Of a DNA stretch of 64,000 bases, positions 1-14,471 are shown piece after piece. Each line of letters starts with the position of its first letter. Within the stretch, counting starts at the first letter, position 1. Position numbers and translations under genes: made by a program. The notes below the pieces were generated by a model. It did no database searches. It saw only the letters and a list, made by a program, of their open reading frames with translations, and was not told the origin of the DNA. The stretch comes from Owenia fusiformis (lineage: Eukaryota; Annelida; Polychaeta; Sabellida; Oweniidae): assembly GCA_903813345.2 (NCBI GenBank), contig CAIIXF020000004.1:2625525-2689524 (forward strand), written 5' to 3'.

Positions 1-1000
1 TGATTATTTCCTTTAAATAGCACTGAGATCTGAGAAAAAGTTGAAATAATGATTCACCCTAATCTATAAGATACCGTCACAGGGCCGTCAGATGGGGGGG
101 TGCGATGGGTGCGACCGCACCCCCCTTTGTCACCCCCCAAAAAAAATTTGAAAAAAAAAATTTGAAAAAAAATTTTTTTGGAAAAAAAATTTTCTGTAAT
201 TTTTTTTTCATTGACTCATACACTTTGAAAGTACCCAGAAAGCACCAAATAGCATCTTAAAATTGTAAAATTTTCTAGAGGTATTGGCCACCCCTCACAC
301 CCCCCACAAAACAATGGAAAAGTTCTAAATTTATTTTAGTGTTTTGTCTCAGACACTTTTAAAGTGCCCAGACATTATCAAATAGCTCCTTGATATAGTT
401 AGTGTTTCCGGGGGACTTGCTCCCCCTCTTGCATCTTGCACTTGCATAGCCCCCCCCCCCTCTGGCGCCCCCCCCCCCTCTGGCGCCACCCCCCTTGACC
501 CCCCCCCCCCCCCCAAAAAAAAATGCCCAGAAAGCACCAAATAGCGTCGTAAATTTGTAAAATTTTCTAGGGGGAGTGGGCCACCCCTCACACCCCAAAC
601 AAAACAATGGAAAAGTTCTGAATTTAACACCCCCCCCCAAAAAAAAAATTGAGATTTTTTTTTATTGACTCATACCCTTTGAAAGTGCCCAGAAAGCACC
701 AAATAGCATCTTAAAATTGTAAATTTTTTTTGGGAAATAGGCACTTTTAGGCACAGACACTTTTAAAGTGCCTAAACTTCATCGAATAGCACCTTGATAT
801 TGTAAATTTTGATATAGGGGACTAAAACTTGCTCCCCCTCTGGCACCCCAGCCCCACCTCCCCTTCTGGCACCCCTTCCCCCTTTCACACCCCCAAAATT
901 TGAAAAAAAAATTGATTGTTTTTCAATGTTTTTATTGACTAGTACACTTTAAAAGTGCCCAGAAGCACCAAATATCATCTTTAAAGATCTAATAGCAAAG
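1..1000. repeat. Degenerate nested repeat block with poly-C and poly-A tracts
   Basis: At least four imperfect copies of one module are visible (about 215-330, 345-430, 515-640, 665-800, and a last partial at 940-985). Each starts near CACTTTGAAAGTGCCCAGA, continues with a CACCAAATAGCATCTT-like segment, and often ends in CCACCCCTCACACCCC followed by CAAAACAATGG. A second module flavour (CTTTTAAAGTGCCCAGACAT, then CTTGATAT) alternates with it and seems to be a diverged version of the same unit. Homopolymer C and A runs separate the modules. The short open frames here are low-complexity and not credible genes. Poly-C runs of this length may be miscounted in the assembly. Confidence 0.75.
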
Positions 1001-2390
1001 GTTTTGCAAAAATAAATCAATGCAGTGTAAAACAAATGTATGTATAATGAAGAAATAAATATTTAATGAAAAAAATAGATATGTGTTTGTAATATTGGTA
1101 TTAACTTAAAATTAAAAAGTGTCACTATCTCTTTCATTTTTCAACAAATATAGGCTCACGTGACATATGACGCGGGGCAGTCATTTTTGATCTATCGTAG
1201 ACCATATCAGTATCAAACTGCCGATATTTCAACCTCGTCTTGCGAGGCCATTTTTATTTGAAACATCTTGAATTTGGTGTCAAAATAAAGCTGGTCACGC
1301 CCACTTTCAGAGTTATCAATGAATCATTTACTACGACTACTATATTCATTTAGGAGGCGTGTAAAGTTAACCAATCAGAAAGACAATTGCTCCATATATG
1401 ACAGTTCATTAACATATTCAGTGTTTACTATTGTTTTTCGCGTCATGACAACACGAGTAGTAACCAATCAAAATGCCGTATTTTATCACGTGAGTTCAGA
1501 GTGACATGCACGACATGTAAGTTTAGTCTGAGCTGATCGCGATGTTGAACAATTTCTTCTCGGAATTTGTCCAGAGAAATCAGCGATTCTAAATTAAGGT
1601 AGGATCTCCCATTTCTTCCTGTACAAGTTTTAACTTATCTCTATCGAATCCTAAAGTTTTGGATGAAGATATGAAGCATACGTTTAAAAACGAAGCGATT
1701 AATTTGACGATCTGATTTTGCAATTTGCAATGGCCAATTTACTGCAAGTCTGCGTGTATTTGACAAGAGATAGCGCCAAGTCTTGTATCCGAATGCTTGT
1801 TAAGCCACTCAAAAACAAGATCCATATTTTCTAAATTTGATAACTTTGCAGAGAGCCCGTTTTCATAACCTGTTTTCCGCGTCTAAATTCAAACTGAGTA
1901 GGATTATAGGATCGCTGGGATTCTCAGTCAATGGCAACGGGTCTTCATTCCAGAACGCATATTTTTTAGTTGATTCTCCGTCATAGTACTTGTCTAAAGT
2001 CCATATCTGCTCTTTTACTGGCATACTTGGACATATTTCCCCTCCTTAAATTGTCCTCCTTAAATAACACCCTCTCGCCGATTTATATATAGCCATTTCC
2101 CAGAACCCGGGAGTCAGAATCGCTGATGTTTGCCATATTGAACATGTTGAAATATGTACTGTAATATCTGTAATACTAGGCATTGCCTGCTACGCGTAAG
2201 GGTCACGTGACTAGCGCGATACAGGAAAAATGGCGAATTTCGAAACAACAATTTTTGGGCACTTTTATTGCAAATTTCAGGTATTTATAAGTGTTTGTGG
2301 TATAAAATATAATCCACAGACATAAATGAACATCCAAACTACATATTTTATTACGTTTTGGAGCCTTTTTGCTTTTAAAATGACATCTTT
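1001..2390. other. Non-coding stretch, no gene recognised
   Basis: I see no open frame with coding character. CACGTG E-box hexamers occur near 1157, 1486 and 2203. The last lies about 25 bases before AAAATGGCGAAT, a YY1-like word in opposite orientation to GCCATTTT. A similar pairing recurs near 4190-4220, so these could be promoter-like or repeat-borne motifs. Confidence 0.4.
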
Positions 2391-2905
2391 AAATTGTAAA
2401 CTTTTCTAGGAGAGGTAGCCACCCCTCACATCCCCCACAAAACAAAAGAAAATATTCTGAATTTCATGTATTGTCTCAGACATTTTTTAAGTGCCCAGAC
2501 ATCATCCAATAGCACCTTGATATGGTCAATGTTTCTGGGGAACAACCCCTTGCTCCCCTACTGGCACCCCAACCCACTTCACCCTCTCATCCTCTTTGAC
2601 ACCCCCAAAAGAATTTGAAAAAAAATTCACATTTTTCTTATTGACTCATAACGCACAGGCGTACCAGATGGTTGCAAATTTGCTCCAAATACAACGAAAT
2701 TTCAAAATTTTCCTGGGGGAGAACCCCCAGTCCCCCTTGAATGCTTGGTTTTTTATTCACACAACTCTTATTCCCGTCGTGGTGTCGTACTACTTAGAAA
2801 CTTACACTTTGAAAGTGCCCAGAAACGCCTAATAGCATCTCAAAACTGTAAAATTTTCCTGGGGACCACTCCTCATACCCCCCACAAAACAATTGGAACG
2901 TTTGG
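2391..2905. repeat. Second block of the 1-1000 repeat family
   Basis: The modules of the first kilobase recur here: a CCACCCCTCACATCCCCC segment with CAAAACAA near 2410-2445, the TAAGTGCCCAGACATCATCC flavour near 2490, the CTTGCTCCCC and CTGGCACCCC words near 2550, and ACTTTGAAAGTGCCCAGAAA near 2805. Order and spacing match the left-edge block, so the 1-3 kb region is two pieces of one repeat separated by about 1.4 kb of unrelated DNA. Confidence 0.65.
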
Positions 2906-3075
2906 AAGTTGCATTTGTTAATTCCAAACTAATATAGGGACTAACTGACCCCCCCCCCCTCTGTTTCTTACGCGATTTGATTTACGCGGCAAAAAAATGG
3001 CAATTTTATATTTCTCTTTAGTAGGCTTAAGCTAAAAACCGCACCCCCCTTTAAGAAAAGTGTCTTACGGGCCTG

Positions 3076-3450
3076 CGTCATCGCAAACAACTTTATACAC
3101 AATGAGTTTTGCTTGCTAAGATACCTCGTCTTCTTTAATGCCAGTGACATCTATAATCGGCCTATAATCACGTCATCGGAAACAACTTTATACACAATAT
3201 GTTGTATATGCTTAGATACCGCGTCGTCTTGAATGCCAGTGACATCTATGAAATACCGTCATCGCAAACAACGTTATACACACTATTGTGATGTATATGC
3301 TTAGATACCTCGTCGTCTTGAATGCCAGTGACATCTATAAAAATGCTGTCATCGCAAACAACTTGATATATACACAATGTGTTGTGCATGCTTAGATACC
3401 TCGTCTTCTTTGATGCCAGTGTCATCTATAAGATACATCATCCCGAACAA
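3076..3450. repeat. Tandem repeat, about 90 bp unit, four to five copies
   Basis: Units begin at about 3076, 3172, 3258, 3348 and 3435 with a GTCATCGCAAACAAC-like word. They continue through TATACACAAT, a GCTTAGATACCTCGTC segment and AATGCCAGTGACATCTATAA. The period varies between 86 and 96 bases through small indels. No open frame runs through it. This looks like an ordinary minisatellite. Confidence 0.85.
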
Positions 3451-5199
3451 CATTTAACCCACCAATGCTCAGTCTCAAGCCTTAGAAACCTGCTTTTGTA
3501 AATGATGTGGAGTTTTATCTTACCAATCCTGAATTGAATATTAATATGGGTAGAACCTATAATTAATATGATATCTAAATTAAAACTTACCAAATATAAC
3601 TTTGATATTAAACAGGCAATGCGCCTATTTTTGAATGAAAAATGACAAAATATTGTTTGAGACATGTCACTCACACATTCACTCAAATATGATAAAAACT
3701 TTAATTTGGGATCATACTGAAGTGAAAAAAAAATTACTTGCATAGAAAACAGCATTTGAAGTTCAGAGATTGAAAAAAGTGAATTACCACTTTTCACAAA
3801 TAGTGTATGTATTAAATAACTCTTGGATTAAAGGATGGCGTGCTTGAAAATCCTGTCAAAAATGAATTCTCGAAATCGTTGTTCCCTCTTCAAAAGAGGA
3901 GACGCGAAAATCGTTCCTTATAAGGTCAAAATATTTCCCATGATGCAGTTCGCGGAGGAACAAATTTATACTTCCTTGTTTTCCCTCATAGGTTTAACAT
4001 GGGGATTTTCACACCTATTTTTCAAACGATATATTCGTTCACATTCCCGTACGAGAGTACAGAAAAAATTATTAGAAACGATTGGTCTCTTATTAGTCTT
4101 AATATAACAGCTATTTTTTTCATTGTATTGATTCATAGCGTGGTGAAAACGATGATTGAAAAGTGAGAAAATATTCCGGAAGAGAAGGTCACGTGATCAG
4201 TTGACTAGTCGCCATTTTGGAAAAAACAATTCCATTCGACTTTCAATACTTTCCTGACAATCTTACCGCACTACAAACTGCAACATCGATGCAGCAACTG
4301 AATAAAAGTATTCATCTTCAAATTACATTATAGAGTTACGTTGAAAACCCACAAACAACTGAGCAGTAGACCAAAGAAGACGCGTCGCTATTATCTAGTG
4401 TTATCTAGGTCAATCTGTTCAGTGGTCCGAAAGCAAATCTATAATACTCGTTTCCGAATTTTGTTGGTCATTGTACAATCTTTTATTGATTAAACTCGAT
4501 ATACTGACTATTAAAGCAATGACAACGAAGAATACTTCCGATGGTGTCATTGTTTTATTTAGCGTGCGGGTGTAAAAACAAAATTGCGTAATTAGTTTGA
4601 TTTAGAACTTTCGGGTCACGCAAATAGCTACGCGAAATGCATAGTGGGAAAATATTGACCAATCAAATGTTGTCCTTTTTGAGTGCTTTTTCAGTACATA
4701 TTTGCGAACGTTCTGATTCAAAGAGCAATCCGCGAAAGGGAGAATTGATAATTAATGCAAACAACAATGCCATCTTTCTATGGCATTGCTTAAAACTTGA
4801 CATATATAAATTGATAGATCAAAAATATTTTGTCATGATCAAGTGTCAACTCTGATGTGGTCTGTTTGAGCTTTTTTTGGTGTCAAATGAAAGATCGGGT
4901 ACTTATTAATCCATTGGAAATACAAAGAAGATCAAAAGTGAGACTTCATTTACGCACTTTGTCCCCTTAATGGTGTTAACTTAAACATGTGGAGCAGTGT
5001 ATCTATAAATTACAAGATCTCCGTCGAGTAGGTATAAATATGACTATAATTCCATACATGTTGTGCAAACAGGTTGTGTATATACTTTCGACAATTCTCA
5101 GTTTACGATATCCTAAAGATATGGTCAAACGCTTTGATTGAAAGTAAAGGTTTCTAGTTCACGATGTCCAAAGATATATTAATCTTCGTGGAAACTGCT
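3451..5199. other. Non-coding stretch downstream of the GPCR
   Basis: Short open frames at 3438-3797 (minus) and 3835-4107 (plus) lack recognisable domains. Near 4190-4220 a CACGTG E-box is followed by GCCATTTTGG, a good match to a YY1 site, but no coding first exon with a clear donor follows. The 3' untranslated region of the minus-strand receptor must lie at the right end of this stretch; I see no convincing polyadenylation signal close to its stop codon. Confidence 0.4.
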
Positions 5200-6213
5200 T
5201 CATTGAGCAGGTGCGGTCTCAACGTCAGTCTGATTCTGGATGTTGGATTGTGGGTCAATCTGGTTTCCCTTCCTCCACAACATTCTTCGAAGTTCTCGAC
5301 GAAATTTTGGCCCGGACAGGCAGTAAAGAAGAAAATTTATGGAATTATTTGTGTATACGAATAAATTACAGATAGCATCGTGGAGATCAGCCTTGGCAAT
5401 TGTAGATTCCTCATCATCCGGGTACCAAGTCGTCTTAAAATTGTAGTAGAGAACAATGGGCGATGTGCAGATAATGAACACGAAATTCACAGTGAGGAGC
5501 ATTGCCGTCATGGATGTCATCTTCGATTCGTTCGTTGAGGTCAGTTTCCGAACTTTGATAATAATGAGCACGTTGCTTGTGAACATGATGATGAATGGGA
5601 TAAAAGAGGCAATGCACGCGTCGATCAATGGCCACGTATACATGTCAAAATTCTTATATCTGTTACCGACAATATCACATTCAGGAATACCAAGATCGTT
5701 TATTTTAATACCGGATGTCCAGAAGAAGTGAAGGTTGATGAAAAGTAAAACAAAAGAGATGAGACAAACTGTTATAAATGCTATGAAACTAGAACAGTAT
5801 ATTCGAGCTTTGTGGGGGATATAAACAGCAACTAGCCTTTCAAACGTTACCGCAACTAAGATCCACGCAGAATGATGAACGGAAAAATAGATGAAGAATA
5901 AATGAAATTTACATCCCCCAGGTGTGATGCTCCGTATGTCTATGTCATATATGTGACGTATCCAATGTCGCAAAAGGCCGGTGTAAAGCACAGTCGTATC
6001 CACTACGGCCAGGACGCTGAGATAAATACTAGAAGTGATTTTTCGCATGTTCTTTCTTGTGAGTACGATAAGAGACAAAGTGTTTCCTATTGTGCCAAGA
6101 ATGATGATCAATGGCGCACAGTAGGTCCATAGTCCCTTTGCTATTGTTGTCTCTGTGTAAATCATGGTTACCGTTGAGTTAATATTTTCGGTAACTGTAC
6201 TTTCGTTGGTGAC
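5200..6213 (-). CDS. Rhodopsin-family (class A) GPCR, FMRFamide/neuropeptide-receptor-like; N-terminus split by a transposon
   Basis: This is a seven-helix receptor of the plasma membrane, expected to signal through G proteins. The intronless frame holds all seven helices. Numbering from an upstream ATG at 6485 (pre-insertion protein, 362 residues), the class A landmarks are: GN in helix 1 (Asn69), LAVVD in helix 2 (Asp97), Cys126 at the top of helix 3, ERL replacing DRY (Arg151), Cys204 in extracellular loop 2 as disulphide partner, CTSP in helix 6 (Pro277), and NFLLY in helix 7 replacing NPxxY (Asn318-Tyr322). The NSINFLLYC helix 7 and ERL motif are common in lineage-expanded FMRFamide-like orphan receptors of marine invertebrates. 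The ligand cannot be predicted. The outer N-terminus has Asn-X-Ser/Thr sequons (NES, NST). The frame runs into a 188 bp inserted element where no ATG exists; a TGA lies at 6262-6264. The first in-frame ATG is at 6165, only about 15 residues before helix 1. Confidence 0.9.
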   Translation of the reverse strand, partial: VTNESTVTENINSTVTMIYTETTIAKGLWTYCAPLIIILGTIGNTLSLIVLTRKNMRKITSSIYLSVLAVVDTTVLYTGLLRHWIRHIYDIDIRSITPGGCKFHLFFIYFSVHHSAWILVAVTFERLVAVYIPHKARIYCSSFIAFITVCLISFVLLFINLHFFWTSGIKINDLGIPECDIVGNRYKNFDMYTWPLIDACIASFIPFIIMFTSNVLIIIKVRKLTSTNESKMTSMTAMLLTVNFVFIICTSPIVLYYNFKTTWYPDDEESTIAKADLHDAICNLFVYTNNSINFLLYCLSGPKFRRELRRMLWRKGNQIDPQSNIQNQTDVETAPAQ

Positions 6214-6401
6214 CAAGGAGGATTGGCTCCCAGAATGCAACACCGATATTCTGCAAAACAATCACCTAGCGATAGCTTTGTTGGAGAGTATCGGGTCATT
6301 CTCCATGCAGTCGTACAAATTATACAGACACGAATAGCAAATGACGCATGCGTGGAGATTAAAGAATATCGAGTTGGAACCCTGGCTTCCAATCCTCCTT
6401 G
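6214..6401. mobile_element. 188 bp palindromic MITE inserted in GPCR coding sequence
   Basis: The element begins CAAGGAGGATTGG and ends with the exact reverse complement CCAATCCTCCTTG. The inverted similarity extends imperfectly to about 42 bp per arm and includes a CGATATTCT word. It is flanked by perfect 9 bp direct repeats, GTTGGTGAC at 6205-6213 and 6402-6410. A 9 bp duplication with long inverted repeats is typical of Mutator-like (MULE) elements, though other superfamilies can give 9 bp. On the receptor strand the element carries TTGTTTTGCAG (6251-6261), a fair splice-acceptor sequence. I saw no second copy in this window. Confidence 0.9.
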
Positions 6402-6410
6402 GTTGGTGAC

Positions 6411-6485
6411 TAAATTCGTATCGTTGGTAGAGGTCTTTATGGATAAATCAACGAATACCTGAAAGATATAACCAATTATTATCAT
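6411..6485 (-). CDS. Displaced N-terminal coding segment of the GPCR
   Basis: A minus-strand frame opens with ATG at 6485 and encodes a hydrophobic stretch (MIIIGYIFQVFV), then a Ser/Thr/Asn-rich segment with an NDT sequon, up to the 9 bp duplicate that encodes Val-Thr-Asn. Deleting the element plus one duplicate (197 bp) puts this segment in frame with the receptor core: the ORF ends differ by 224 bases, and 224 minus 197 is 27, nine codons. In the present sequence the frame instead reads through the element and stops at 6168. TTTCAGGT inside this segment could also be a splice acceptor, so the true first exon may lie further upstream. Confidence 0.6.
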
Positions 6486-6686
6486 GTGCTAATTTGAAGT
6501 GACTTGGAACCAAAAAGTGTACACAAGATCGGATCCGCTCATCCCTAATAACACGTCTTAAACTCCATTCTATTGTCAAAAGGTCATTCTCAACCGTCGT
6601 TGACTTGTTATAAATGTGTCTTCTTACATATTTTATGAATATGACATCAAATATGACCCAAAAAGATTTGTCTTCTAAGACATCTG

Positions 6687-7081
6687 AAAGGACGATTCTC
6701 GGTTTGGAGAACGAAGTTCATCAATCTATATGAGCATTATCCCTGCTTCGGACAAATTTGATTTTTTTTACATAACATAGATTTGAATGTCTTCTTTTGA
6801 ATAGTCATAATTTAATTTGGGTAATATTTCTAGATTTTTCGCAAAAAAATATTCGCGCAGTACACTGATGAACTTCTTTCCCCAAATCGAGATTTGTAAT
6901 TTATTGAATCGGTCAAATTGAGCGTTATCCCTGCTTCAGACCAATTTGTTATTTTTACATCTTGTAGATCTAAATGTCCTCTTTTGAATATTCATAGTTT
7001 AATTTGGGTAATATTTCTATATTTTTCATGAAGAAAATTATTAGCCCAGGAGACTGTTCTCCAAACCGAGAATCGTCCTTT
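6687..7081. mobile_element. 395 bp MITE with perfect 26 bp inverted repeats and an internal duplication
   Basis: The left end AAAGGACGATTCTCGGTTTG and the next six bases are exactly mirrored at the right end (26 of 26 bases). Inside, a block of about 120 bases occurs twice: once from about 6731 and again from about 6920, starting at GTTATCCCTGCTTC or ATTATCCCTGCTTC and running through TTTAATTTGGGTAATATTTC. I see no clear target duplication. It lies about 200 bp upstream of the GPCR N-terminal segment, so it may sit in that gene's 5' region. Confidence 0.85.
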
Positions 7082-7366
7082 ACAAATGACTGAATTTACT
7101 GAATGATTAGGCCTAGAAATGACTCCATTCAGCCATTAGATTTCATGGAGCCACATACAAATATAACACTTTACATACAAAAATATGTAGAGTCCAATAT
7201 TCTAGTATACTAGGTAAATAACTGATTTGCATCGTCAAGTAACATTGAAGATGTTTTGAATACATTGCTTTCCTTTCTATTGATAGCCTACGTGCTTTTA
7301 ACTTAATGCTTCAAAATGGTTAAATTGACCACGCCCACTTTTGCTCTACATTCCAGTGGTAGGGCA
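7082..7366. other. Short non-coding gap
   Basis: No coding or repeat structure recognised between the 395 bp MITE and the mariner fragment. Confidence 0.3.
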
Positions 7367-7994
7367 CTATGACGAGCCTTGCAAGATGTGTCGTCTATTC
7401 CTTTGCAACATAATTTTGTACTTGTTAAACCACCTGTAAATGTTTCTCTCAGCAATGGCAGCTTTACCATATGCCTTCTTTATCTGTCTTATAGTCTCTT
7501 TTACACCTTTCCCCAACTTTACACAGAACTTAATGTTTGTTCTTTGCTCTATTTTACTCTGACTTGGCGCCATCTTGAATTGGGTGGGTTAGTGTCCTTG
7601 GTCATGTTAGTATTTGTCATGGATGATGGAAGCAATTCAAAGAAATTGAAAGCTTTTTATGAATGCCTATTGTGACATCACAACTATTACTTATTTGTTA
7701 CCATGGCAACAAATATAAAAATCATAGAAAACAAACAATGAACATTTTCAAATGTTACTGACTTTTTAAATTAGAGAAATTCACAAAAACGTTATGGTTT
7801 CTCTTCAATTTGCCCCGGGTTACGCGATATCGGGTTACTATAGCAACCATAATTTCAACCAATGAAATGATTGAATTCCAATCTTTGAGATGGTAACTCA
7901 GAAATGTTGTGGGTACATGTATACCAAATGTCATGAAGATCTGATGAATACTTTTGAAATTACAATGTCTTTGACGTTACTTCTGGATCACCCT
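7367..7994 (-). mobile_element. Truncated mariner-type transposon, 5' part
   Basis: The minus-strand frame 7367-7573 starts with ATG and encodes 68 residues resembling the N-terminal helix-turn-helix of mariner transposases: KIEQRTNIKFCVKLGKG, then IRQIKKAYGKAAI and IYRWFNKYK. The element's outer end is at 7994, where the plus strand reads CCACTCTG-type mariner terminus as GGATCACCCTG followed by TA. About 420 bases of leader separate the terminus from the ATG. The catalytic DDE/D part is missing; the copy is cut near 7367. It is a dead relic. Confidence 0.75.
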
Positions 7995-7996
7995 GT

Positions 7997-8608
7997 ATAA
8001 TGCTTTCATTAGTGACAACTTCATCATCAATTTTCAATTGAATGGAATATCATTCCCAAAAAGAACAAGCAAAAATAATTAGTATTTGCAAAGTTGTGTT
8101 ACAAAATTAAGATGGTTGGTATTTTTGTGTAGAATTTAGGCGTGCCTGCAAAACACGGACAATATTTAGATCACATGATCTAACTGCGACGATTATAAAA
8201 GTGCATCTAGTTGAGCTAGTTATATATAGTCATCAGAACGTATTGAGGAATTGTTCCATGGAGCCTAGTTTTAAAGATTAATTTAGATATCGTGCAGACA
8301 GAAAAGTTATTCAACATTATATATGTCGGTGGCATTTTTTTATGTCACCCTATAGGTGAGACTAAACCAATAACATATAAATTGCATATTTTCTCATATT
8401 TTTACCTTTTCTGAGATTTATATAGATACCACTCTTTATCCTATGCCAAGTAGAGTTTTAGGGAGATAAGTTGGTAATATATATCCCGTATCCTGATTTT
8501 CCATATCCAGAATCTCCATATCTCCCGCCATATCTCCCGCTTCGGTGCATATCTTCCCGCTTCCAGTAAGTAGTGGAAATGCAATAAAATGACTTTGCAT
8601 ATGAATAA
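7997..8608. other. Non-coding flank of the LINE
   Basis: No gene is visible. A 14 bp word CCAAGTAGAGTTTT near 8445 is exactly mirrored just inside the LINE near 8651, about 200 bases away. The stretch 8480-8560 repeats CCATATCTCCCGC-like words. Confidence 0.35.
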
Positions 8609-8632
8609 TTTGTCTATTTTTGTATTATTGAA

Positions 8633-9370
8633 ATGACCATGCCCCAGAAAACTCTACTTGGTATCCGTGGCAAACTGTGGCGTATGCTTTATGATAATTA
8701 CCATAAATATGAATGTGCCGTTCGTGTAGGAAGTTCAAATACACTTTCTAAACCTTTTAATGTCATGCAGGGCGTCCACCAAGGGGGTGTCCTATCTATG
8801 CTATTTTATCAGTTGTACATGGCTGACCTTATTCAGGATCTATGTGAAATGAATATAGGTGGCCACATTGATGATGTAAATTGTGTATGTCCTTCTTATG
8901 CGGATGACATGACCATTATTGCCACAAATCAAAAGGATATGCAACTTATGTTAAACGCTGCCTTTGAACATAGTAGAAGATGGCGATATGAAATCCATCC
9001 AGCGAAATGTAACTTTCTGACATTTAATGATATGGTCACTGATTCAAGTGTTAAAGGTCATGTCGTTCTCAAGATAGGTGACACGAGAATTCCAAAGGTC
9101 AATTTCACTGTTCATGTTGGTATTCCAATATCTAGTAAAAATGATATCTCACAATATGTTAATGATCGCTGCACTAGTGGTAAGCGAAAATTCTGCTCAC
9201 TTTTGGGACTGGGGCACAAAACAGGTGGTTTGTCACCCTTAACAGCATCAAAACTGTACTGGGCCTTTTCTATTCCAACCATGCTGTTTGGGGCACCAGT
9301 TATAAATTACCAAGCGTCAGATGTTGAAAAGCTTGAATTGACTCATAGGGAGATTGGCAAACGTATCTAA
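8633..9370 (+). pseudogene. LINE reverse transcriptase, C-terminal part of the polymerase domain
   Basis: The frame shows the hallmarks of a non-LTR reverse transcriptase: NVMQGVHQGGVLSMLFYQLY (residues about 44-63), the catalytic YADD box (CPSYADDMTII, about residue 87), and a thumb segment ending LTHREIGKRI. It ends at TAA 9368-9370, but the same frame continues without shift into FFPKTSANPS and then LGWLSI, which normally follows in these proteins. The TAA is therefore one nonsense change inside one original reading frame, probably from CAA. The upstream fingers region is missing, so it cannot be active. Confidence 0.85.
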
Positions 9371-10147
9371 TTTTTCCCCAAAACCTCAGCCAATCCTAGT
9401 GCAACGATGCCGTTGGGATGGTTGTCAATAGACGGCTATATTACAGTGTTGCAGATGATGTATCTCTGGAGTTTACTTAGGTTTAATAATATTTACAGGG
9501 ATATAACTATAACACGGTTAGTAAAGATGTTTCATGTCACTTATGACAACCATGCCGATATTTTCTCTCCTATCCGGCGCATTTTCCTTAAGACCAAAAT
9601 GCTAGGAATTGAAAATCTGGTTAAAAATGCGCTGGACTCTGGATATCTTCCGTCGAAGAGGTCATGGAGACTGCAAATTGTCAATGCTGTAAGATCCGTC
9701 GAGGTCAAGCAATTTTTCTTGCAATGCTCATGTTATGGCAAACTTTTATACCTACGTGACTATGTCACAGACTTAAAACCTTGCATATGGTGGTTGATTT
9801 GTCAGAAATATCCTAAATGTCAAAGCCAGTGTAAAACTATGATGCAATTGATATGTAACGCCCATGTATTAAATACGAACAACTTCAATGGTTCAAAACG
9901 ATGTATATTGTGTAACCTGTGTGAAACTGAAACAATTGAACATTTTATATTAAGATGCCCTATGTATGAACCATATAGGCATAACATATTTGAAGCCCTT
10001 GGCAGTCGTGGTGACAGTATGGGTGTTATTATGAAGAAAGTTTTAGGTCTCTCAGATGTTTCATGTGAGACGTTAATAATTGTATCATCATGTGTACACA
10101 AAATGTACAATCACAGAGCCAACCTGTTGGCTCTGCTTGACACATAA
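9371..10147 (+). pseudogene. LINE ORF2 C-terminal region with Cys/His motif
   Basis: This continues the reverse-transcriptase frame after the internal TAA (the next ATG is at 9407, 774 bases or 258 codons after the 8633 ATG). The C-terminal part has CILCNLCETETIEHFILRCP, the CxxC...H...C motif found at the end of many LINE ORF2 proteins and thought to bind nucleic acid. It ends in a natural stop at 10145-10147. The minus-strand frame at 9820-10110 is only its shadow. Confidence 0.8.
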
Positions 10148-11679: not shown

Positions 11680-14471
11680 TTATGGCAAACTTCCGAACAT
11701 TAAAGCAAGTAGACACTGAATGTCATGTGATACTCCTCTGGTTAAAATAGGTGTAGTGAAGTACTTTGCATCGCTATAATCATCTAAAAACTTACCAAAT
11801 AAATAAGTTACGTTTTCTGTCTTAGCACATCCAGTTGTATTAACAAACAACATTCAATAGCATTGACACTTTATATATACAGTAAACGTATGCTGCTTTG
11901 CTATTTATTGTCTCTAGAGATTAAAGCTTCCGCAGCATCCTCCTATGTGTGCTTTAACATATTCATTTAGTACATAAAAACGTGATTAAGTACATATCAA
12001 GATTGACCGTCTGGTAATTACAAAATAAAAAAATTATTTTACCCACCCAAAATGAATCTTTTTACTTTTTTTGAGTTTTCGATAGAGCTGGCACCTTTCG
12101 AACCCTGGTTTTCGTATCCACTAATTGCGACTCAAGAACAAGTTTTCCCAGGGAAAGGGATAAAATATGCTTGATAAAATGTTTGCAATTTAATTCTTTT
12201 CTGGAAACACCATTATCGAAATGAACTATAATTTTGAATAAGACTAAATGCGAAAATGACGTTCTTGGGAGCAAGCTTTCTCAAACCGGAAGTCAAACCT
12301 GCGCAAACAGACGTGAAAACCGACCCGGTAAGCTACTGCATCCTTAAAACCCATTTTTTGGACGAGTTTCTCGATTATTGCATACGTGCAGTTAGGTTAC
12401 GAGTTTTGGAAAATGTTCTTAGAATTCATCTAGCATCATCGAGAAACGAGAAACTCACGAGTTTAGTTCCTCACTTTTGATGCAAAAACACCACCCCGAA
12501 GATGCAAAATGACCATTCTATGCTTTGTGTAATGATGCAATTACACTAATTAAACCACATCATGGGCGTTCATATATTATAAATCAATTCATCGTATACT
12601 TTAAGAAGACCATACATCCCAGGGGGAGCAGATTTTTTTTTCATTACTGCAAACTATGGCATTTGAGCCAATAGATATCATTCAACATTTTTAGGCAATC
12701 GAGTCCAATTGTTTCCCACAATGCCCCATCGAGTCCAACGTGGAATCTCATGGGACACGAAGGGGCACAATTGGGGAAAGTCCGACGGAGTCCCATGGAA
12801 TCCCACGAAGTCCATGGGACAAAATCCCATGAAGTCCAAGGTCCAACGCAATCTTTAGGTCTAAGGAAGTCCCACCGTGTCTATGCGTGTATGTGATGTC
12901 GTATATATGGCCTATTTGCTACTTTTTTCCGGGGCTGTTTTAGTTTTTAAGCAAGTTCAATCCTTTTCTCGAATGTTTTCGCCCACTTGGTATTAATTGA
13001 AAAATCCTCGAAATGAACGTCTGTGGGTCTTTATAAAGAGGGGATAACTTTCTCCTACTCTCCTTTTCGAATAAACGCCCATGGGCATATTCGCGAGAAA
13101 CTCCGGTATACCGGTAGCCTACTTAACCACTAGCACTATATTTGCCGTTGTAATTTACGTAAACGTTAAATCGGTAGTAGGACCTCTAGCTCTTCTACTT
13201 TGCGATGGGTTTCTTTATGTTTTATTTTTAGATTCAAAGAAGTTTCAAAATTTAAGAAAACGCCGGAAGTCATTATCTAAATTGGTAATATTCATACAAA
13301 ATCATAAATATGTGATTAGTTTCAAAATTTGCTTCCTTAAAATTATAGATCGTGCCCATGGGCATTCAACTCCAAAATATCTTTCGAAAATGTATCACCG
13401 GAAGGCTGGCCACTTGAATCACGATACCCCCCCCCCCAGTGATTTCTCAAGAGGACTTCCGGCACCGCGTCTTATGATGACATCGTTGACAATGTTTTAT
13501 TTTTACAAACGTTTTATCTAATCGAGAGTCCCTCCTGCCCCGTGAATCGTTTTGCCCCACTAGCTCCCCTTCACCTAAAATTGCATAAAAAAATGAAACA
13601 TACCATAAAATGCCATAAATTAATGGAATTGCCGTGTAGTTGACGTCAAATCGGATGACAGTCAATTGCTCATTACAAGGATTGCAGTGACATACTGGGG
13701 CATTATATGGGATATGCCAAATCGCAACATTAAAATGATTTTCAGAATTGATGAAAACTTTATAATATACACTGTTTCGCCTTACCATCCATTAACATGA
13801 TATATGAGTTGATAAATGATTGCTTTTTATAACAATTTTACGTACGTTTGAAAGGATGTCAATTTATCAATGTTGAAGACAAAAAGACGGGTTTTCCCAT
13901 CTAACGATATAATCAGACAAAATTGGATCGAACAAGTTAAGATACATTGCTCAAACGACATCCCTATTAAACATTCTCAAATGTTCGATCGGAATGGGAT
14001 CAGGTACTTCGAAACGTTGAACACAATTATGTCACAACGCTATTAATGCTAAATCTGCAGATGCCGTGACATGGCACCTTTCCATGGTGCATTTCCTATG
14101 GATATTTGACCTTTAGACACCCCCTCCCCTCCGTCCATCTGTCAAAATCAGAATGGAAATTTTCGACATTTTCTATAGATGGCGTATTCAACAGGTGAGA
14201 TCTTTTGATTTTCGCGGGGAGTTTTGTTCCGAATTTTTTTGACTCACAAAAGACATGCATGCGTATGATGGCATTATAGCCAAACATGATTACAATTCTT
14301 ATTTATCTCTAAAAGACAGATCATTTGTTTGTGAAAAGCCATGTTACAACATTTGGTGGGAAGAAATCAGAGAACTCAATTAGATATTTATTGGGGTGAC
14401 ATCTATGTTTAGAGTTATTTCATATCTCCTTTTACTTATATATACTAGTATACGACTACATTTGGTGCTAA
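11680..14471. other. Non-coding stretch with no confident gene
   Basis: Two plus-strand frames were considered and not called. At 12256 an ATG opens a 74-codon frame whose first 24 codons are followed by a possible donor (CCGGTAAGC). At 13081 a 146-codon frame begins inside a palindrome-like CGCCCATGGGC and has no recognisable domain. 12720-12870 is a simple-sequence patch rich in GTCCCATGG and AAGTCCCA words. Poly-C runs are at 13429 and in the pyrimidine-rich 14120 region. Confidence 0.4.

Follow-up and report, generated by a model that had tools for sequence, protein, structure and literature searches.

In the window analysed here (a 64-kb stretch of Owenia fusiformis DNA), a MITE (a non-autonomous DNA transposon with inverted ends) most likely sits within the 5′ leader of a class-A GPCR gene that is intact and starts at ATG 6165. 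We give this putative gene model a probability of about 64%. The MITE is placed in the leader because the first in-frame receptor ATG on the model is 6165. A member of a very recently amplified family has inserted with a 9-bp duplication into exon 2, at a point that matches the N-terminal sequence of paralogues; the window gene has lost the ATG of its close paralogues and, on the gene model, most likely starts at 6165. Two outcomes could follow. In the first, the MITE would add 188 nt and three upstream ATGs to the leader, which would lower translation. In the second, the first exon would splice to the MITE’s own acceptor at 6251, which would remove the three MITE ATGs. The seven-helix protein would be the same in both.

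The insertion itself is a real transposon insertion. The element is non-coding, occupies 188 bp at 6214–6401 (no strand assigned), starts with CAAGGAGGATTGG and finishes with CCAATCCTCCTTG; its 13-bp terminal inverted repeats (CAAGGAGGATTGG) are perfect. Perfect 9-bp target-site duplications, GTTGGTGAC, flank it at 6205–6213 and 6402–6410. The genome searched (498 Mb in 525 contigs, including the window) contains 131 exact full-length copies (64 + 67) compared to 0 for the reversed control, and 3031 occurrences of the 13-bp end compared to 3 for its control; the insertion is, therefore, not a chance resemblance. These counts and the identical borders confirm the original prediction of a transposon insertion with perfect 9-bp repeats. 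Its description of the element as palindromic suits the perfect 13-bp ends and is otherwise loose: the longer inverted arms reported by a repeat finder span 41 nt, include two bases beyond the MITE on each side and are 76% complementary. The single-stranded DNA fold is stable (z = −5.95, with none of 200 shuffles as good), and positions 6100–6600 have no Rfam match at gathering scores. The element shares with MITEs in general its short length, lack of coding capacity, inverted ends, 8–9-bp duplications and many near-identical copies; its family differs in that no autonomous partner was found among the loci read. Insertion into a receptor gene is an ordinary kind of event.

The MITE family is very young and has amplified very recently, because 131 copies are identical and 209 fall within three mismatches of the element genome-wide. 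Mean change per site is ~0.25% (131/209 unchanged), which underestimates change in the family because copies with more than three mismatches are uncounted. The window copy is among the unchanged ones, which makes it probable that the insertion is still polymorphic. No allelic empty site was found in a genome protein search, which returned no near-identical second receptor copy and a next best match at 79%. Related size classes exist: many of the first 100 listed places with the 13-bp end pair at 185–305 bp, including examples of 304 bp (L032) and 299 bp (L034). Among 10 exact copies read with their flanks, including the window copy, six have perfect 9-bp duplications, three have perfect 8-bp duplications and one has a 9-bp duplication with one mismatch. 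Transposon growth in O. fusiformis is described, in a figure legend, as steady rather than bursting (PMC9977687); against that background, the expansion of this single small family would count as a recent burst. Literature matches for Owenia and MITEs look incidental, and we make no claim that the family is unpublished. A paper on mulberry (PMC6593561) deals with MITEs together with alternative splicing. Open frames of >100 codons are interrupted by two of the 10 read copies, a small number, namely those in the window receptor and in a hAT-like frame at L002. At L002 (C4:17503044–17503231), the identical copy lies within a 110-codon open frame that resembles a hAT transposase C-terminus, and a hAT dimer-domain match occurs 34 bp away from it. 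Elsewhere (G000 C6:26707915–26708102 and 26708107–26708294), two identical copies stand in the same orientation with 4 bp between them.

The receptor body is intact and has evolved under constraint. Its reading frame (5200–6213, minus strand) comprises 337 codons from 6213 to 5203 plus a stop at 5202–5200, and it encodes a rhodopsin-like 7TM protein with an above-cut-off Pfam 7tm_1 match at residues 45–297 (E 7.4e-20). The nearest solved chains are opioid receptors, at low similarity (best phmmer E 1.4e-13). The protein resembles rhodopsin-like GPCRs in its 7tm_1 domain and in the paralogue clusters that the genome carries; it differs in its low similarity to solved receptors. A genome protein search with the receptor listed 123 matches, of which the closest after itself are L012 (79%) and L013 (77%); comparison with L012 gives dN 0.128 and dS 0.607. 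These properties bear on whether the locus was already a pseudogene in which the insertion was neutral. The ATG of the close paralogues is gone here and the leader carries upstream ATGs, as might be expected of a decaying locus, but 337 codons without a stop, a domain match that covers profile positions 3–260 of 260 and a dN/dS of ~0.21 argue against decay, and we consider a pseudogene unlikely.

When one duplicate is kept, both flanks of the MITE align gap-free with all five paralogues in the alignment (L012, L013, L055, L015 and L018), which confirms that removal of 197 bp restores frame continuity, as had been proposed. By this comparison, the five paralogues are related empty sites for the insertion. 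L014, L016 and L017 were kept outside the alignment, since the N-terminus of each differs or starts at another place; that of L017 (C10:25961587) has a run of near-identical TTEITNMA-type repeats ahead of the first helix. The segment of the receptor exon on the 5′ side of the MITE (6402–6458, minus strand; frame ..KTSTNDTNLVTN) aligns with the N-terminus or 5′ leader of the paralogues, and the frame across the joined flanks (..TNDTNLVTNEST..) has counterparts in them. Because the insertion is clean and very recent and the genome also holds related empty sites, its effects on the length of the leader, the upstream ATGs and the splicing of the receptor gene are directly measurable, probably between individuals as well.

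Frame continuity also underlies the proposal that ATG 6485 (6483–6485, minus strand) is the true start and that the insertion has only recently knocked out the N-terminal part of a receptor that is otherwise functional. From this ATG, an open frame continues across the joined flanks into the receptor frame, which it joins exactly at the duplicate, and the joined frame encodes sequons; this continuity counts against the leader placement. The present frame from ATG 6485 stops at 6168 and the first ATG of the receptor frame is 6165, both as originally reported. However, 28 open codons arise by chance about one time in four (an arithmetic estimate), so the frame coincidence alone is weak evidence, and the ATG 6485 context is weak. 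At this position L012, L013 and L055 carry intron-end sequence, with their ATG further in; in-frame stops occur upstream in L012 and L013, and no aligned paralogue has a matching ATG. ATG 6485 is probably intronic, and a candidate first exon with a match in L012 is found 5.3 kb further upstream. The start proposed in the original prediction is not upheld by these comparisons, and the knockout reading is improbable.

The preferred gene model instead begins exon 2 at a putative splice acceptor, ATCTTTCAG (6459–6467, minus strand), just downstream of ATG 6485; its CAG occupies 6461–6459 and its last base is 6459. The acceptor aligns with TTTTTTAG of L012, L013 and L055, and the local match with L012 begins at it; the window and paralogue sequences both look like intron ends. 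The ATG of L012, L013 and L055 stands at AAAATG(A/G)CTACTACC, where the window reads CATAAAGACCTCTACC, with ATG changed to AAG. The ATG of L015 and L018 lies one step before the duplicate and is TTA in the window gene. The first receptor-frame ATG (6163–6165, minus strand) has the context GTAACCATGA, which is good by Kozak rules. It is residue 17 of a frame with sequons at residues 3 and 12; a receptor that starts there has ten residues before ‘GLWTYC’ and lacks both N-terminal sequons, a loss that may matter. Small exon-like pieces (ATTATTTCA..ATG..GTAAG) occur upstream of the receptor exon in L013, L055 and L056, apparently duplicated in paralogue introns.

A putative promoter and first exon at 11755–11910 (minus strand) would supply the remainder of the leader. 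The block has TATA-like TATATATAA at 11879–11871 and a GTAAGT donor with its GT at 11795–11794, and it matches the region upstream of L012, which has a TATA-like sequence and ATTTGGTAAGT. Two collinear segments of the L012 block (89 bp, 73%, E 3e-8; 59 bp, 81%, E 1e-6) match window positions 11910–11755 on the same strand and in the same order, with GTAAGT in common. The only other window match of the L012 block is a weak one of 40 bp (77.5%, E 0.006) that falls around ATG 6485, at a different place in L012, and it counts against the model. For L013, L055, L015 and L018, ~3.5 kb of upstream sequence each gave no convincing match to the block, which also counts against the model. Genome searches returned only itself for the window block, and itself plus one 80% match of ~65 bp on C4, in the intron part and not the exon, for the L012 block; both searches are too insensitive to detect the match between the two blocks. 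These searches only rule out a common young repeat as the identity of the block. The first exon is proposed from one paralogue (L012) and the transcription start is assumed, which weighs against the model as well.

The implied intron spans 11795–6459 in the window compared to ~0.9 kb in L012. At 8609–10147 (plus strand), inside this proposed intron, an RVT_1 open frame (reverse-transcriptase-like at 8609–9370) precedes a second open frame that has no Pfam match, and the two account for part of its enlargement. If exon 1 starts just below the TATA-like box, three ATGs fall within it; their frames run for 7, 22 and 2 codons, all of them out of the receptor frame, and would clutter the leader even without the MITE. 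If it starts at ~11850, only the last of them falls within it. Confidence in the leader placement is reduced slightly because exon 1 may carry its own upstream ATGs. A 58-nt open stretch (11853–11796, minus strand) runs from ATG 11853 to the proposed donor and contains two sequons; it may be an upstream frame or the relic of a coding first exon. The 22-codon frame, which has two sequons, ends in phase 1 and so agrees with the open phase of L012 exon 2; its sequons and phase make an ancestral coding first exon, now lost, conceivable. Traced back from exon 2 into exon 1, the receptor frame is closed by a stop codon before an ATG is reached. When the exons are spliced as 11796|6458, the first receptor-frame ATG is 6165 with or without the MITE. 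Disruption of the gene, restart at an internal Met and use of a MITE acceptor had been offered as possible outcomes; the latter two stand better than disruption because ATG 6165 would be first in frame even in the absence of the MITE, with the leader changed more than the protein.

Within this putative leader, the MITE ATGs lie at 6349, 6306 and 6299, and a 43-codon frame begins at ATG 6299 and ends at 6168, 2 nt before ATG 6165. The predicted acceptor-like sequence in the MITE is TTGTTTTGCAG (6251–6261, minus strand); if used, the exon would begin at 6250. Splicing to TTGTTTTGCAG would extend the 22-codon exon-1 frame, if transcribed, to 46 codons, and the frame would still stop before ATG 6165.

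The acceptor-like sequence raises the question of whether the MITE is introner-like. Introners are intron-creating transposon families, and some of those described in PMC9860276 carry a 3′ splice site and take the 5′ site from the target duplication. The window MITE could shift the existing 3′ splice site of the first intron to TTTTGCAG within the element, or could create a new intron from the GT of the duplicate to the CAG. This reading is compatible with the leader placement because the shifted-intron form is one of the two branches of that model. On the gene strand, 37 nt separate the end of TTGTTTTGCAG from the downstream end of the MITE, the gene-strand duplicate starts with GT, and splicing would remove all three MITE ATGs. 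Inverted ends, a target duplication, exon insertion and an internal 3′ splice-site-like sequence are shared with introners as PMC9860276 presents them. However, the splice sites are predicted from sequence, a new GT-to-CAG intron would leave 37 nt of the MITE in place and shift a coding frame, and another AG lies 15 nt ahead of the acceptor AG. Eight of the 10 read copies also lie outside long open frames, the exceptions being the window gene and L002. We regard introner-like behaviour at this locus as quite improbable. A wider claim would be that a 3′ splice site travels with the MITE, that splicing masks the upstream ATGs of a copy that lands behind an existing donor in a leader or exon, and that the family is a currently amplifying, introner-like one in an animal genome; this is more doubtful still. 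If the MITE acceptor is used, the locus would be a live animal case of transposon-made intron sequence; if the family is introner-like, the receptor locus would be a natural test.

An autonomous partner that would place the family in the MULE, Merlin, hAT or P superfamily was sought among transposase genes. No transposase within a pair of 13-bp ends occurs in the loci fetched from genome searches for Merlin-type, MULE, hAT and P-type transposases. Matches were read with ~1.5 kb flanks (4 of 4 for PF12762, Merlin-type; 8 of 8 for PF10551, MULE; 8 of 138 for PF05699, hAT; and 8 of 13 for PF21787, P-type), four MULE and two P loci were read further out, though short of both ends of the P-type element, and scans for the 13-bp ends allowed ≤2 mismatches in some fetched loci and ≤3 in others. 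One hAT locus (L046) has a separate 182-bp relative next to it. Two long end pairs (L019 and L035) were read from the first 100 places listed for the 13-bp end, and both were rejected as autonomous partners. The L019 sequence (C1:4239350–4243560) reads as nested elements that form a composite. L035 (C1:13399690–13408260) contains, at 39–8529, an 8491-bp element with the same 13-bp ends, a 9-bp duplication (CTAAATTGA) and tandem repeats of 134–193 bp; its sole frame of ≥100 codons falls largely in tandem repeat. Three P-type loci, L063–L065 (C4:29370493, C11:2203561 and C10:19101834), have transposase frames of 452–591 aa in copies that are 99.2–99.5% identical over 3.4 kb, and they read as a recently active P-like element.
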